Origin: an uncultured Acidobacteriota bacterium
GTDB lineage: Bacteria > Acidobacteriota > Thermoanaerobaculia > UBA5066
Reading direction: 5' to 3'
DNA length: 59,489 bases
NCBI GenBank assembly: GCA_903845115.1
Contig: CAIMWE010000092.1
Span: 1 to 59,489 of the forward strand
The position numbers and the translations under genes were made by a program. Positions 46,896 to 53,930 of this stretch are shown here, piece after piece (positions within the stretch are counted from its first letter, which is position 1; each line of letters begins with the position of its first letter). The notes beneath the pieces are model-generated. The model had not been told where the DNA came from, did not search any database, and was given only the letters and a program-made list of their open reading frames with translations.

Positions 46896-47631
46896 CCCTG
46901 GAGGGCTCCCGGCCGCCCGGCCTTTCCCTCCTTGCGGTCGCGGAGCCCGGCGAGAGAGTCCGCCCGCGCCGTGACCTCGTGGATGGCCGCCTCGATCCTC
47001 GTTCTCAGCTCCTCGATCTCCTCCCCTTCGTTCCGGAGGATCGGCTCCCCGGCCACCCAGACCCCCCGCGCGAACGGCCAGGGGATGAGGAGCCGGTCCC
47101 ACGTCCCGAGGCGAAGGGCCCGCGACGAGGAGAAGGCGGCCGGCACGACCGGACGCCCGGTCCTCGCGGAGAGCCACGCCGTTCCCGGCTTGACGATCCC
47201 GGGCGGCCCTTTCGGCCCGTCGACCGAGATCCCGAGGTCGCGCCCCTCCTCGAGGAGCTGCGCCAGCCGGACGAGGGCTCTCGCCCCCCCGCGCCGCGAA
47301 GAGCCCCGGACCGCCGGCGCGCCCAGGTTCGCCAGCATCCCCGCGACGATCTCCCCGTCCCGGTGCGTGCTGACGAGGACGTGGATACCCGGCCCCTCGT
47401 AGATAAACCGCATCATCAGCAGCCGGCTGTGCCAGAAGGCGATGACGTAGTTTCCCCCCTTGCGTTGATCTCGCGCATCCGCTCCCCGCCCACCGTGCGC
47501 CACCTGAGGCTGCGGCGGAGCAGCCGGACGAGGACGGAGAGGACGAAGACGGGGGCCGCTCCGCCCAGGAAGGTCGCGAGGCGGATCCGCGCCTCCTTTC
47601 CCGCTGCGACGGGCCCGTGCGAGTCCGTCAC
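46892..47631 (-). pseudogene. DUF374 lysophospholipid-acyltransferase-like gene with frameshift
   Basis: Two frames join one DUF374 protein. The N-terminal part (GTG 47631, SVLVRLLRRSLRWRTVGGER) is in one frame, and the rest (GNYVIAFWHSRLLMMRF, VSTHRDGEIVAGMLANLGAP, LGISVDGPKGPPGIVKPGTA) is in another. They meet at a run of six C on the plus strand (47454-47459, six G on the coding strand). One extra G would restore an intact gene of about 246 residues. The start overlaps the lpxB stop (GTGA) and the end overlaps the deacetylase start, so the operon position is kept. It may be a sequencing error, a phase-variable run or a true lesion. DUF374 proteins are thought to acylate lipid A-like lipids. 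Confidence 0.8.
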
Positions 47632-48800
47632 CGGAACGCCCGGCGAGCCCGTCCCGAGTCGATGAGCTGCAGCACCTCGGCCGCCGCCCGTGCCGCCGCC
47701 CCGGGAGGGCCGATCTCCCCGAGGAGCTCCCCGAACCCTTCGAGCATCCTCCGCCGGGGCTCGCCCTCCGCGAGGAGGGGAAGGGCGGCCTCGACGATCC
47801 GGGCGGGAGTCATCTCCTCCTGGATGAGCTCGGGCATGACGTCCCGTCCGGCGAGGATGTTCGGGAGGGCGTAGCGGGAGATCTTCACCCGCGCGAGGCC
47901 GAACCGGTGGGTGAGGGGGTCGACGCGGTAGACCACCACGCAGGGCGTCCCGAGGAGGGCCGCCTCGAGCGCGGCGGTCCCGCAGGCCACGAGGCCGAGG
48001 CGCGCCGCCCCCAGGACCTCGTGCGTACGCCCCACGGCGAAGCGGAGGGGATGCCCGCCGAGCGTGGGGGGGAGGAGGCCCGGGTCGAGGCTCGCCGCGA
48101 GGGCGACCAGGGGTTGGAGGGAGGGCTCTCGACGGACGAGCTCCTCTGCCGCCGCGAGGAGCGCCGGGAGGATGCGGCGGACCTCCGGGCGCCGGCTCCC
48201 GGGGAGGAGCGCGAGGACGGGGCGTGCCGGGTCGAGGCCGACCCCCGAGAGAAACGCCGCCCGGTCCGGAGCGGGCCGGACGAGGTCCCGCGCGGGGTGC
48301 CCCACGAAGGTGACGGGGATGCCGGCGGCGCGCCAGATCGCCTCCTCGAACCGGAAGAGGACGAGCATCCGGTCCACGTGGCTCGCGAGGAAGCGGGGCC
48401 GGTCGTCGGTCTTCCAGACCCAGACCTTCGGCGCGACGTAGTAGGCCACCGGGACCCCCTGGGCGCGGAGATCCCCAGAGACCCGGATGTTGAAGCCCGG
48501 GTAGTCGACGAAGAGCGCGGCGTCGGGACGCCGCCTCTCCACCTCCTCGACGAGCCTTCGCCGGATCGAGTTGTGGCGGGGGACCTGGAGGAAGACCCCG
48601 AAGAAGCCGGTGGCCGAGAGGTCCCGCACGTGGGAGAGCAGCTCGGTCCCGGCGGCCGCGAGCTCGTCTCCGCCGAGGCCGAAGACCTCGAGGTCGGGCC
48701 GCAGGGAGCGGATCTCGCGGACGACCGCGGCGCCGAGGAAGTCGCCCGAGGGCTCCCCCGCGACGACGACGAGGGACGGGGGCCGACGCGCCTCGATCAC
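47628..48800 (-). CDS. lpxB: Lipid-A-disaccharide synthase
   Basis: LpxB joins UDP-diacyl-GlcN and lipid X into the lipid A disaccharide (GT19). The 390-residue protein has SLVVVAGEPSGDFLGAAVV, VDYPGFNIRVSGDLRAQGV, then YYVAPKVWVWK (usually P.VWAW), and LALLPGSRRPEVRRILPALL, all family hallmarks. It sits nine bases after waaA and overlaps the acyltransferase start. Normal length. Confidence 0.95.
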   Translation of the reverse strand: MIEARRPPSLVVVAGEPSGDFLGAAVVREIRSLRPDLEVFGLGGDELAAAGTELLSHVRDLSATGFFGVFLQVPRHNSIRRRLVEEVERRRPDAALFVDYPGFNIRVSGDLRAQGVPVAYYVAPKVWVWKTDDRPRFLASHVDRMLVLFRFEEAIWRAAGIPVTFVGHPARDLVRPAPDRAAFLSGVGLDPARPVLALLPGSRRPEVRRILPALLAAAEELVRREPSLQPLVALAASLDPGLLPPTLGGHPLRFAVGRTHEVLGAARLGLVACGTAALEAALLGTPCVVVYRVDPLTHRFGLARVKISRYALPNILAGRDVMPELIQEEMTPARIVEAALPLLAEGEPRRRMLEGFGELLGEIGPPGAAARAAAEVLQLIDSGRARRAFR

Positions 48801-48809
48801 GCGGCGATC

Positions 48810-50114
48810 CTACAGGGCCGCCGCACCGAGGACGAGGTCGGCGCTGCGCCGCACCGCGCCGCGGTATCGGTCGAGGACCTCCCGGCCGCGCCGCGCGACC
48901 TCCTCGCGGGCCGCCGGGTCGAGGAGGAGGCGCTCGCACGCGGCCCGGAGCGCCTCCTCGTCGGCCGTCTCGACGGCCCCGCCCGCCGCGAGGAGCTCGC
49001 GGGAGACCGCCGCGAAGTTCCCCATGCGGGGGCCGAAGAGGACCGGCTTGCCGGCCGCGACCGGTTCCATCGGGTTCTGGCCGCCCCCCCTCGAGAGGCT
49101 CTTCCCGACGAAGGCGACCGTCGCCACGCCGTACCAGTCGCGGAGGTCGCCGGTCGAGTCGACGACGACGGCGTCCGAGCCTCCGGACCGGGCTTCGGGC
49201 CGCGACGCGAGGACGACGGCGAGCCCCGCTTCCTCCAGCTCCCGGGCCACGGAGCGAGAACGCTCGGCGTAGCGCGGGACGACCACCAGCGCCAGGCCGG
49301 GGACCGCCGTTCGGAGGCGAAGGAAGACGCGCGCGAGGATGGCCTCCTCGCCCCGGTGCGTGCTCCCCCCGAGCAGGACCGGCCGCGAGCGGTCGATCCC
49401 GGCGGCGGCGAGCGCCGCGATCGGCCCGTCGCACGCTCCCCGGGGGATCCCCTCGTCGTCGAACTTGATACGACCGGTCGCCACGACCCGGCCGGGGCGG
49501 ACCCCGAGGCCGATCCAGCGGGCCCCCTCGGCCGCGTCGGGGACCCCCACCGCGTCGAGCGAAGCGAAGACGTCGCGGGACCCGCCGAGGAGGACGCGGC
49601 GGTGGACGAACTCGGAGCGGTCCGAGATCCTCGCGTCGACGACGGTCACGCGCACTCCGCGCTTCCTCGCCTCGACGACGAGGTTGGGCCACACCTCCTC
49701 CTCGATGAGGACGAGATGCCCGGGAGCCACGAGATCGAGGGTCTTGCGGACGGCGAAGCGGAAGTCGAGGGGGGCGAAGAAGGAGGGAACCTCCGGGAGC
49801 CTCCTCCGCGCCAGGGCGAGGCCCGTCGTCGAGGTCGTCGAAAGGACGACGCGCAGGTCCTCGCGCCGCCGGAGCAGCTCCCCCACCAGGCGGACGGCGA
49901 TCATCACCTCGCCGACGCTGACCGCGTGGATCCAGATCGACGCGCCTGCCGCCAGGCGGGTGCGCGCCTCGCGGTCGAAGAGCCCGAAGCGCTGGCCCGC
50001 GCCCGACTGCACCCCCCCGCGGCGGAGTACCCGCGGGAGGAAGAACGGGATCCAGGCCGTGAAGAGCAGCGGCGTGAGGGCGTTATAGGCTGCGAAGCAG
50101 AGCCGCTGCCACAT
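48810..50114 (-). CDS. waaA: Kdo (3-deoxy-manno-octulosonate) transferase
   Basis: WaaA/KdtA adds Kdo to lipid IVA (GT30). The 434-residue protein has an N-terminal membrane-associating helix (about 3-28), SGAGQRFGLFDREAR, ASIWIHAVSVGEVMIAVRLV, LIEEEVWPNLVVEARKRGV, GGSTHRGEE and GGGQNPMEPVAAGKPVLFGP with RMGNF. All are conserved family motifs. The start is ATG 50114. It is the first gene of the six-gene minus-strand LPS operon. Confidence 0.95.
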   Translation of the reverse strand: MWQRLCFAAYNALTPLLFTAWIPFFLPRVLRRGGVQSGAGQRFGLFDREARTRLAAGASIWIHAVSVGEVMIAVRLVGELLRRREDLRVVLSTTSTTGLALARRRLPEVPSFFAPLDFRFAVRKTLDLVAPGHLVLIEEEVWPNLVVEARKRGVRVTVVDARISDRSEFVHRRVLLGGSRDVFASLDAVGVPDAAEGARWIGLGVRPGRVVATGRIKFDDEGIPRGACDGPIAALAAAGIDRSRPVLLGGSTHRGEEAILARVFLRLRTAVPGLALVVVPRYAERSRSVARELEEAGLAVVLASRPEARSGGSDAVVVDSTGDLRDWYGVATVAFVGKSLSRGGGQNPMEPVAAGKPVLFGPRMGNFAAVSRELLAAGGAVETADEEALRAACERLLLDPAAREEVARRGREVLDRYRGAVRRSADLVLGAAAL

Positions 50115-50473
50115 CGCCGGATTCTATGGGGCGCTCGCCGAACGCTCTCTTTCCCGCGCACGGTCCGCTCCTGCACCTCCCCGCACGGTGTGGGGGGGGG
50201 CGGCACGACCACCTCGCCATCCCCCGGGGCCACCTCCACAAGGGCCGGCTTCAGGAATGTCCCGCAGCTCCGGAGTCTGTCCCACCGTGATCCATGTGTG
50301 TCTCGAAACTGTCCCTCGGGACGACACCGGAATGGGCGCAGAGTCGAGAGCGCCCTTCGATCCAGCGGGTTGCCGGGCACCTCCACCATGGCACAACGAA
50401 TGCTACAGTCCGCCATCCGGCCAGGGGCAACCGTGCGGGATGGGATCGGGGCAGGGAGAGAGAGGGGGGGGCT
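50115..50473. other. Divergent intergenic region
   Basis: This holds the promoters of waaA (minus) and the IPTL-CTERM lectin gene (plus). Besides the sigma-54-like site at 50389-50404, no hairpin, RNA gene or small protein stands out. A G run at 50463-50471 (AGAGGGGGGGG) serves as ribosome-binding site for the lectin gene. Confidence 0.4.
50389..50404 (+). promoter_or_regulatory. Sigma-54-like promoter (-24/-12)
   Basis: TGGCACAACGAATGCT fits the TGGCACG-N4-TTGCW consensus with both key dinucleotides (GG and GC) at correct 10-bp spacing; only the G at position 7 and the first T of the -12 box differ. It lies 70 bases before the lectin start. PEP-CTERM-type sorting substrates are known to be controlled by sigma-54 with PrsK/PrsR. 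Role here is inference. Confidence 0.55.
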
Positions 50474-53035
50474 ATGTTCAGTAGGGGTAACTCCAGGGAG
50501 ACGGGGACGACTGCGCTGCCATCGATGGTCCTGTTCTGCGCCGCGGCGCTGCTGGCGGGAATGCCGGGTCGTCTGGACGGCCTCGTGGTCATGAGCGAGG
50601 ACTTCCGGACGGCGACAGCGACCGCGAAAGGCTGGACGCTCAAAGGCAACGCTACTCTGACGAGCGGCGGCGTCGACCCGGCCGGCGCGGGCTGGCTCCG
50701 GCTCACCTCCGCGTCGGCCACCCAGGCCGGCTCGGCGATCTTCGACACGGCCTTCTCCAGCTCGGACGGCGCGCAGATCACCTTCTCGTACGCCACCTAC
50801 GGCGGCAACGGAGCCGACGGCATCTCCTTCTACCTGATCGACGGCACGGCGGCCACGACGGTCGGGGCGCCCGGCGGGGGGCTGGGCTATTCCCGGATCA
50901 CCGACCCGACGGTCACTCCCGGCGTGACGGGCGGGTACCTCGGCGTCGGTCTCGACGAGTACGGCAATTTCGCCAAGGATACGTCGGGCACCTGCAACCC
51001 GAGCTGTCCCGGCCAATCTCCCAACCACGTCACCATCCGGGGCTCCGGCAGCCTCAACACGGGCTTCAACTACCTCACCCAGCAGGGGTTCACGATCGGG
51101 ACGACCGATCGCGCCGGCGCCAAGAGGGTCCGGATCACGGTCTCGCCGGACCCGGTCACCATCACCGTCGAAATCGACTCGGGCTCGGGCTTCGTGCCCG
51201 TCATCTCCAGCTTCCCCGTCGCCGGGGCGCTCGGCCAGGTCGCCACGCCGACAACCTTCAAGATGGGCCTCTCCGCCAGCACGGGCGGATCCAACAACTA
51301 CCACGAGATCCGCGACCTGAACCTGAACGGCGCCCGGCCGTCCACCACGACCCTCGTCTCCTCGCCCAGCTCGTCAGTCGCGGGGCAGTCCGTCACCTTC
51401 ACCGCGACCGTGACCGTCACCGGCGCCGCCGGCTCCCCCTCCGGAACGGTGACCTTCAAGGACGGGGCCACGGTCCTCGGCTCCTCCTCCGTCTCTTCCG
51501 TCTCCTCCGTCACGGGCACCGCAACCCTCGACACCTCCGCACTGACCGTGGGAACGCACAGCATCACGGCGACCTACTCGGGCGACGGGATCTACGCGAG
51601 TTCCCTGTCCAGCGCGGTGTCCCAGGTCGTGAGCCTGGCGGCGTCCACCACGATCCTCGCATCCTTGCCCAACCCGTCGCCCTCGGGGCAGTCCGTCACC
51701 TTCACGGCGACCGTGACCGGCGCCGCCGGCTCCCCCACCGGAACGGTGACGTTCCGGGACGGGGCCATGGTCCTCGGCTCCCCCTCCGTCGCCTCGGGCA
51801 TCGCGACTCTCGCCACGTCCGCGCTGACCGTGGGAACGCACAGCATCACCGCCACCTACTCGGGCAACGCGACCTACTCGAGTTCCGTTTCCGACACCGT
51901 CTCCCAGGTCGTCGCGAACTCTGCGCCGACGGCCTCGTCGATGAACCCGGCGTCCGGACCCCTCGGGGGCGGGACGAGCGTGACGATCTTCGGGACGAAT
52001 TTCGTCTCCGGAGCCACCGTGACCTTCGGGGGGACCGGCGCTTCGGTGGCGACCCTCTCGCCGACGCAGATCAAGGTGACGACGCCCGCCGGGGCGGCCG
52101 CCGGAGCCGTCGCCGTCAAGGTGACGAACCCGGATACCCAGTCGGTGACGCTCGCCCAGACCTTCACCTACAACCCGTCAGGGTGCTGGCCGGACACGAC
52201 CGCCAAGAGCGCGATGGTCGGCCCCTGCAATCCGATGGTGGCGGGAGACCCGAGGGACCCCGGCGCAACGCCGATCTCGCCCTCGGTCAGCCCGGACGGC
52301 ACGATCTACCAGCTCCCGCCGCTCTGGAGCGGGGTGCTGCCCGGCGACAAGCTGGTCTTCTTCACGGGTGCGCCGCCGACTCCGACGAAGGCGACCGGCC
52401 GGATCCCGGCCTCCCCGGCACCGACCACTTCTGGGACGGGGACCACGGGAGCCTACGTGGAGACCACCGGCAGCGGGATCATCTCCGTCGGACTCTTCCA
52501 GGGGAGCGCGGCGGGGAAAGCAACCCGCGGCGCCACCCCCGCCACGTTGACCGGCTACGGGATGACGGTGACCGGCTACCGGGCCGGCGTGCCGACGTTC
52601 ACGTCGACCGTCGCGCTCGCCTCGTCGAGGGGGAACGGCGTTTTCGACCGGGTCGTGAAGAGCGGCGACTTCGACCTCCCGCTCGTCACGATGGACGCCG
52701 ATAGAGACGGCTTCGCCGACCACATCAGCGCCCCCTGGGCGCTGATCGGCACCTTCCTGGGCGGGTACACCGGCGGCGGCGCCCCGGGACCCACTCCCCA
52801 GGTCTGGCTCCCCCTCGCCGACACGGACGGGGACGGGTACGGCGACGCGATCGTCTTCGACTTCGGGGGGACCGGTCAGCCGAGCGCGGTCATCCCGCAG
52901 ATGCCGGCGCTCCTGCCGCCGGTCAGCCAGAGGGACCTCTTCGCGATCCCGGCGCTGGGCGAGTGGGGCCTCTTCGCGCTCGCCCTCTCGGTGGCAGCCG
53001 CAGGCTGGTTCGTCCTGAGGAGGACGGTCTCGTAG
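50474..53035 (+). CDS. Secreted lectin/Ig-like/IPT protein with IPTL-CTERM tail
   Basis: This 853-residue exported protein has a leader helix (about 15-38). A legume-type lectin domain (about 40-280: SEDFRTATATAKGWTLKG, GNGADGISFYLIDG, GYLGVGLDEYGNF) is followed by two bacterial Ig-like repeats (about 285-385 and 390-480, each with SVTFTATVT and TVGTHSITATYSG) and an IPT/TIG domain (about 482-565). The C-terminal region has two acidic calcium-like loops, DADRDGFAD (about 740) and DTDGDGYGD (about 782). It ends in IPALGEWGLFALALSVAAAG and an RR-containing tail, the IPTL-CTERM signal cut by exosortase H. Start: ATG 50474 behind a G-rich site. It likely works at the cell surface, in adhesion or matrix. 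The exosortase itself is not in the window. Confidence 0.9.
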   Translation: MFSRGNSRETGTTALPSMVLFCAAALLAGMPGRLDGLVVMSEDFRTATATAKGWTLKGNATLTSGGVDPAGAGWLRLTSASATQAGSAIFDTAFSSSDGAQITFSYATYGGNGADGISFYLIDGTAATTVGAPGGGLGYSRITDPTVTPGVTGGYLGVGLDEYGNFAKDTSGTCNPSCPGQSPNHVTIRGSGSLNTGFNYLTQQGFTIGTTDRAGAKRVRITVSPDPVTITVEIDSGSGFVPVISSFPVAGALGQVATPTTFKMGLSASTGGSNNYHEIRDLNLNGARPSTTTLVSSPSSSVAGQSVTFTATVTVTGAAGSPSGTVTFKDGATVLGSSSVSSVSSVTGTATLDTSALTVGTHSITATYSGDGIYASSLSSAVSQVVSLAASTTILASLPNPSPSGQSVTFTATVTGAAGSPTGTVTFRDGAMVLGSPSVASGIATLATSALTVGTHSITATYSGNATYSSSVSDTVSQVVANSAPTASSMNPASGPLGGGTSVTIFGTNFVSGATVTFGGTGASVATLSPTQIKVTTPAGAAAGAVAVKVTNPDTQSVTLAQTFTYNPSGCWPDTTAKSAMVGPCNPMVAGDPRDPGATPISPSVSPDGTIYQLPPLWSGVLPGDKLVFFTGAPPTPTKATGRIPASPAPTTSGTGTTGAYVETTGSGIISVGLFQGSAAGKATRGATPATLTGYGMTVTGYRAGVPTFTSTVALASSRGNGVFDRVVKSGDFDLPLVTMDADRDGFADHISAPWALIGTFLGGYTGGGAPGPTPQVWLPLADTDGDGYGDAIVFDFGGTGQPSAVIPQMPALLPPVSQRDLFAIPALGEWGLFALALSVAAAGWFVLRRTVS

Positions 53036-53087
53036 GAGGAGCGCGGCTCCTCGTTCCGGCCCGGCAGCGCTGAGCGCGGCCGGGCCG
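53036..53087 (+). terminator. Tandem hairpins after the lectin gene
   Basis: GAGGAGC/GCTCCTC (stem 7, loop 3; 53036-53052) starts right at the stop codon. A second hairpin, CGGCCCGGC/GCCGGGCCG (53057-53065 with 53079-53087), follows. There is no clear T run, so termination may be inefficient or Rho-assisted. They separate the lectin gene from the acyltransferase 20 bases later. Confidence 0.4.
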
Positions 53088-53108
53088 TCCGCGCTACATT
53101 GCGGTCCC

Positions 53109-53930
53109 ATGGCGGCTCTCTCGTGGATCCTGGCCCGCACTCCGCTCCCGGTGGCGGCGGCGTTCGCCTGCGCCGTTTCGTGGCTCTGGTGGGTCGTCGC
53201 TCCCGTGCGCCGGCGGCTGGCCGAACGGAACTTCCGCGCCTCCCTTCCGGGCCTCCCCCCCGGCCCGGCGCTTCGCCGCATGACGAGGGGAATCGTCCTC
53301 GGCTACTTCGAGCTCCTGCGGGAGATGCGCCGGCCCGGGACGGTGCGATTCGACGTCGAGGTGGCCGAGGCGCTCCGGGAGAGTTCGAGGCGAGGCGAGG
53401 GGGCGCTGCTCCTCGGCGGACATTTCGGATCGTGGGACCTCGTCGGGAACCTCCTTCCGGGGCGCACGGGGATCCCGATGAGCACGATCGGCAAGGTCCC
53501 CCATTCCCGGGGGGCCGCCGACCTCATCGCGAGGGCCAGGGAGGCCTTCGGTCTCGGGAGCATCCCGCCCGACGAACGGGCCATGCGCCGCGTCATGAGG
53601 CTTCTCGCCGAGGGGCAGCTCGTCGTCTTCACCCTCGACCAGAACCACCCGGGTGGCCTCCCCGTCCCGTTCTTCGGGCGGCCCGCCCTGGCCGCGACCG
53701 CCCTGGCCGCGGTCGCGGCCAGGAGGCGCGTCCCCGTCTATTTCTGCGAGCACTGGCGCGAGGGGACCGGCCACCACCGGGCGCTCATCTCGGGGCCCCT
53801 CCCGACGACCGGCCGGGTCGAGGACGACACCGTCGCCTTCACCCGGCGCGTGGAGGACGCCATCCGGCGCCGTCCCCACAACTGGCTGTGGCTCCACAAC
53901 CGCTGGAAGGGCGTCCCGGCGCGCGGCTGA
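53109..53930 (+). CDS. LpxL/HtrB-family lipid A acyltransferase
   Basis: This 273-residue protein has an N-terminal membrane helix (about 12-32), the AERNFRASLPG region and the catalytic HX4D motif His105-Asp110 in LLGGHFGSWDLVGNLL. DQNHPGGLPVPFFGRPALAA and HNWLWLHNRWK are conserved in late lipid A acyltransferases. It uses acyl-ACP or acyl-phospholipid to finish lipid A acylation. It stands apart from the lpx genes, after the lectin gene, and is convergent with the PHP-like gene 10 bases away. Confidence 0.88.
   Translation: MAALSWILARTPLPVAAAFACAVSWLWWVVAPVRRRLAERNFRASLPGLPPGPALRRMTRGIVLGYFELLREMRRPGTVRFDVEVAEALRESSRRGEGALLLGGHFGSWDLVGNLLPGRTGIPMSTIGKVPHSRGAADLIARAREAFGLGSIPPDERAMRRVMRLLAEGQLVVFTLDQNHPGGLPVPFFGRPALAATALAAVAARRRVPVYFCEHWREGTGHHRALISGPLPTTGRVEDDTVAFTRRVEDAIRRRPHNWLWLHNRWKGVPARG

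Follow-up and report, generated by a model that had tools for sequence, protein, structure and literature searches.

Does the sigma-54-like promoter in front of a gene for an IPTL-CTERM lectin protein control that gene, and would such control extend to the other IPTL-CTERM proteins of the same genome? The question was raised by a preliminary description of the window (the whole 59,489-nt stretch of DNA from an uncultured Acidobacteriota bacterium that was analyzed here), which had suggested that the gene might stand under the PrsK/PrsR logic of PEP-CTERM proteins. Our analysis led to a narrower reading, namely that the lectin is an individually sigma-54-controlled exosortase H substrate outside any shared IPTL-CTERM regulon, and we put the probability of this reading at roughly 0.75. 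The features of the locus are collected in Table 1.

Table 1. Predicted features of the lectin locus, in window coordinates
Feature	Position	Strand	Basis
lpxB, beyond kdtA	47628-48800	-	
kdtA/waaA (Kdo transferase), divergent neighbour	48810..50114	-	homologues in relatives
Divergent intergenic region between kdtA and the lectin gene, 359 nt	50115..50473	+	
Putative sigma-54 -24/-12 element TGGCACAACGAATGCT, predicted transcript start about 50415	50389..50404	+	
IPTL-CTERM L-type lectin gene, 853 aa	50474..53035	+	
Signal-peptide-like N-terminus, residues 1-37	50474..50584	+	by eye
L-type (legume) lectin domain, residues 38-286	50585..51331	+	AlphaFold2, VIA-align, weak PF18483
Two Big_3_5 Ig-like repeats, first boundary approximate	51341..51913	+	PF16640, two stretches, 143 bits
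IPT/TIG domain, residues 485-566	51926..52171	+	PF01833, 58.5 bits
C-terminal domain with two DxDxDG calcium-type loops, upstream boundary approximate	52520..52945	+	
IPTL-CTERM tripartite sorting signal AIPALGEWGLFALALSVAAAGWFVLRR	52946..53023	+	PF18203, genome motif scan
Two strong hairpins directly after the lectin stop codon	53036..53087	+	MFE -47 kcal/mol, z -2.7 vs shuffles
Lipid A acyltransferase (htrB/lpxL type), next gene downstream of the lectin	53109..53930	+	PF03279, 105.6 bits

Architecture and predicted sorting of the lectin protein

The reading frame of the lectin gene is open upstream as far as an ATG at 50294. Across this extension the GC content was flat by codon position (0.67/0.63/0.68) while GC3 was 0.90 downstream of 50474; we therefore placed the start at 50474, which leaves the -24/-12 word intergenic.

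The product had been described beforehand as a lectin with two Ig repeats, an IPT domain, calcium-like loops and an IPTL-CTERM tail, arranged as in a surface protein, and each of these parts was recovered. Pfam recognized the tail (PF18203, 27.7 bits against a gathering threshold of 20.8), the TIG domain and both Big_3_5 repeats, the latter pair being visible in the DNA as a repeat of about 300 nt, and the two DxDxDG loops lie at about 52694-52720 and 52820-52846. The lectin domain scored below Pfam gathering (PF03388, 16.7 bits against 24; PF18483, 52.4 bits, E 8e-14, against 78.3). Its AlphaFold2 model, built on 32 aligned relatives drawn from many phyla, had a mean pLDDT of 94.2 and a legume-type fold over the whole length; VIA-align gave Z 24.0 and an rmsd of 2.5 A over 206 residues for pea lectin (5t7p_B), with ERGIC-53 close behind. 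The domain is thus predicted to adopt the legume-lectin jelly-roll fold. Segments ADG, GG and DEYGN, in which plant lectins have the Asp, Gly and Asn that make up their site for sugar and calcium, are conserved in the lectin-domain alignment. Judging by these domains, the protein may bind sugar and play a role in adhesion or in a matrix. The closest paralogue in the same genome, on contig C169, shares 53% identity across residues 18-510 and likewise has an IPTL-CTERM end.

The protein has a predicted signal peptide, a C-terminal IPTL motif, a hydrophobic stretch and an Arg cluster, as expected of an exosortase H substrate, and TIGR04174 scored 17.8 bits in the whole-protein scan (cut-off 20.5) and 24.2 bits in the genome scan. 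The preliminary description had suggested looking for exosortase H and for other IPTL-CTERM proteins; the genome encodes one exosortase H (XrtH; 112 bits, cut-off 86) and contains 14 IPTL-CTERM motifs above cut-off. After xrtH comes the gene for a membrane protein similar to the XrtH-associated family NF041730 (29.5 bits against a cut-off of 35). By virtue of its tail the lectin is a predicted substrate of this exosortase H, which is encoded elsewhere in the genome, and would be processed by it. Our literature search turned up no paper with experiments on exosortase H. Two IPTL-CTERM motifs on contig C86 (22339-22413 and 27284-27361; L057) lie mid-way in long frames, and a signal-peptide-like stretch then follows in frame, as if genes had been fused or a stop codon lost.

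A -24/-12 element upstream of the lectin gene

A sigma-54 promoter was taken as one that starts transcription 12 nt after the GC and depends on RpoN. The word upstream of the lectin gene has both invariant dinucleotides of TGGCAC-N5-TTGCW, GG at 50390-50391 and GC at 50402-50403, 10 nt apart. It has one mismatch, ATGC instead of TTGC in the -12 part, and also has A instead of G at position 7. Between its end and the ATG at 50474 are 69 nt, which upholds the earlier claim of a match 70 bases before the gene, and this 69-70 nt distance fits the mean of 71 nt between sigma-54 box and start codon in PEP-CTERM genes (Haft et al. 2006, PMC1569441).

We scored the element with a position weight matrix built from the published sigma-54 consensus, with weights that we set ourselves, and obtained 16.2 of 19.7 bits. 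The next-best site of the window reached 12.7 bits and was intragenic, and second-order Markov shuffles yielded about 2 sites of at least 16 bits per 2.7 Mb of strand. No other of the 214 upstream regions scored in the same genome (400 nt each) exceeded 14 bits. The pattern TGGCACN5WTGCW was expected 0.01 times in the window and occurred twice in 5.85 Mb. The intergenic region contained no TTTACA, no excess of palindromes and no sigma-70-like site; it has one imperfect repeat (50301-50349), and no activator site was recognized in it.

A full-length orthologue of the lectin was not found in 80 relatives, and a genome of the same genus (77% complete) also gave no match; a footprint of the promoter across the phylogeny is consequently absent. 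Relatives of the lectin in other phyla had no consistent upstream site, a few high scores lying at wrong distances.

Extent of the transcript

The gene order in the window is lpxB and kdtA on the minus strand, divergent from the lectin and acyltransferase genes on the plus strand. Since the acyltransferase starts 74 nt past the lectin stop on the same strand, a sigma-54 promoter could yield a lectin-htrB transcript and so couple a surface lectin to lipid A acylation. We consider this unlikely: the two hairpins directly after the lectin stop suggest that the transcript may end there despite the nearby gene, and most PEP-CTERM genes under sigma-54 control form units of one gene (PMC1569441). The lectin gene is probably transcribed alone. 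Rfam gave no matches within 50000-53200.

Function of -24/-12 elements in the genome

The match could also be a chance word, the gene being read from a promoter of a type outside these scans. As the main test of whether -24/-12 elements function in this organism, we counted TGGCAC-N6-TGC in the genome with wrong spacings as the control; a reversed-pattern control was dropped because its dinucleotide content differs. The true spacing occurred 24 times and the wrong spacings N7 and N8 together 13 times, so that the true spacing was 3.7 times commoner per spacing (24/37 against one third, binomial p 9e-5). Of the 24 true-spacing words 14, and of the 13 controls 2, stood no more than 150 nt before a gene on their own strand; in other words, 14 of 16 properly placed words had the true spacing against one third expected (p 1e-5). 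Two of the 14 depend on start codons corrected by eye (L161, L164), and two precede short ORFs of a small contig, without which 12 remain. An excess of this size would make about nine of every ten properly placed words genuine. The genes behind them include those for an ammonium transporter (388.9 bits), GvpA, CheW, CsbD and a ferredoxin. Probable sigma-54 promoters were noted before gas-vesicle, ammonium transporter, CsbD-like, ferredoxin, CheW, HD-GYP-like and cytochrome-like genes (L173 on C191, L171 on C117, L175 on C208, L174 on C201, L168 on C108, L177/L178 on C222).

The machinery for such promoters is present as well. The genome has one rpoN (425 bits), for which the preliminary description had also proposed a search, and about 30 sigma-54 activators, of which at least 15 of the 20 checked had GAFTGA, GSFTGA, GAYTGA or a near variant.

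In favor of a chance word, the control spacings also gave about one properly placed word per spacing, and the region upstream of the C169 paralogue has only half of the element, a TGGCAC at -156 with no GC at -12 (TGGCACGGGGGTTCTC, 5.0 bits). Blastn found no homology between the upstream regions of the two paralogues. On the other hand, 14 placed words of the true spacing stand against about one expected from the control, the lectin element has the best score of the 214 upstream regions and its distance to the start codon is typical (PMC1569441). A chance match is thus distinctly improbable. The earlier proposal of a sigma-54 promoter is supported by the rarity of the word, its matrix score and the genome-wide spacing control, and on this sequence evidence the element is very probably a genuine sigma-54 promoter.

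Lipid-A-like gene clusters with IPTL-CTERM proteins

The DxDxDG-loop domain of the lectin recurs in short proteins of IPTL-CTERM or similar type encoded in clusters of four other genomes (G004, G006, G011, G023) and on contig C113 of the same genome. These clusters, opened by the IPTL-CTERM genes, contain genes for a FabZ-like protein, LpxB, LpxD, a ketosynthase, an ACP and a second ketosynthase, and mostly lie opposite a second kdtA. The same clusters at loci L200, L320 (C113), L183, L182, L184 and L186 also have acyltransferase genes. In G004 and in another family, xrtH adjoins two ketosynthase genes and a thioesterase gene; at L302, L306-L308 and L315-L317, xrtH and the gene for its associated membrane protein lie beside two ketosynthase genes and one for a 4HBT-type thioesterase.

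It is possible that clusters of the FabZ-LpxB-LpxD type encode a dedicated pathway of lipid-A-like kind that is linked to exosortase H sorting. The further proposal, that exosortase H substrates receive a Kdo-lipid-A-like anchor from such a pathway and that the lectin is its sigma-54-inducible member, is in our opinion a long shot. A profile search of the genome contigs with an alignment of the C-terminal domain gave no matches. In the kdtA tree the kdtA of the window did not group with the IPTL-linked kdtA genes, and the two kdtA/IPTL pairs therefore need not share one origin.

Other IPTL-CTERM genes and the regulator beside xrtH

A regulon of the kind first proposed would have the same box before most genes with the sorting signal. 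It was found before one of 12 IPTL-CTERM genes. Among the 11 others with enough upstream sequence, two of which (on C86) have uncertain start codons, no comparable site was seen and none exceeded 10 bits (best scores 2.3 to 9.3 bits; background of upstream regions: median 3.2, 95% quantile 7.9, 99% quantile 12 bits). No sigma-54 site was found upstream of xrtH. The best proteins for PrsR and PrsK reached 424 bits (cut-off 502.6) and 91.5 bits (cut-off 300), respectively, the latter matching in the kinase domain only. In the PrsR box, motif 1 has TTTACA at its end and lies about 63 nt before the sigma-54 box (PMC1569441); this core is absent upstream of the lectin gene.

Genes for a histidine kinase and for a regulator that combines an AAA+ domain with a Fis-type DNA-binding domain flank xrtH and are kept in seven genomes of the family; an FHA domain was recognized in the G004 orthologue of the regulator. 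The regulator gene (L056:15295-17151) is convergent with xrtH and has orthologues at L295, L298 and L300-L303. In all seven genomes GAFTGA is lost from its AAA+ domain, which is three residues shorter there and reads SGAPGE or similar, and the Asp of Walker B is replaced by Glu; in three genomes of a sister family (L306-L308) the AAA+ domain is gone at the same position, the FHA-like and Fis parts remaining. These changes make the regulator unlikely to activate the sigma-54 polymerase, and it gives no link between the sorting enzyme and sigma-54; as GAFTGA is missing, it was set aside as support for sigma-54 control. The series may represent a stepwise loss of sigma-54 dependence.

A sigma-54 regulon of IPTL-CTERM proteins under a PrsK/PrsR-like pair is thus not supported in this genome and is very improbable: rpoN, XrtH, many activators and the kinase and regulator genes beside xrtH would suit it, but the upstream regions with no comparable site, the sub-cut-off PrsR and PrsK, the missing TTTACA and the degenerate or lost AAA+ domain speak against it.

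Discussion

We propose that the lectin gene stands under sigma-54 control by itself. The computation established the site with its rarity and placement, the fact that -24/-12 elements work in the genome, the domains, xrtH and rpoN; that the gene actually depends on sigma-54, that XrtH processes the product and that the lectin binds sugar and acts in adhesion or a matrix are inferred. Transcription would start near 50415 once some enhancer-binding protein, one of the about 30 in the genome, is activated, and the gene should be silent until then. The product would be secreted and would combine an L-type lectin domain with two Ig-like domains, a TIG domain, calcium-type loops and an IPTL-CTERM tail for XrtH. 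A tight sigma-54 promoter that serves a single gene for an exosortase H substrate offers an inducible model substrate, and the PrsK/PrsR logic should not be transferred to exosortase H without testing.

Compared with legume L-type lectins such as pea lectin and ERGIC-53, the lectin domain has the same predicted fold (Z 24) and keeps the Asp, Gly and Asn positions, but it is only about 20% identical and is a bacterial module fused to Ig, TIG and IPTL-CTERM parts. The known exosortase H/IPTL-CTERM system (TIGR04177, TIGR04174, NF041730) is represented here by XrtH, the adjoining XrtH-associated membrane protein and the 14 motifs, with the differences that the associated protein does not reach its cut-off (29.5 against 35) and that a degenerate AAA+ regulator lies beside xrtH. 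The closest parallels are the PEP-CTERM genes with a PrsR box (PMC1569441) and pepA of Aquincola, a PEP-CTERM gene driven by a mapped sigma-54 promoter, TGGCAC/CTGCTT, of the same -24/-12 form as here (PMC9850573). Like the lectin gene, they encode an exosortase substrate and follow a long intergenic region, with the -24/-12 element ~70 nt before the start. The sorting systems differ, PEP-CTERM with EpsH/XrtA there and IPTL-CTERM with XrtH here, and unlike the PrsR-box genes the lectin gene would be a single gene outside a shared regulon, with neither PrsK/PrsR nor TTTACA.
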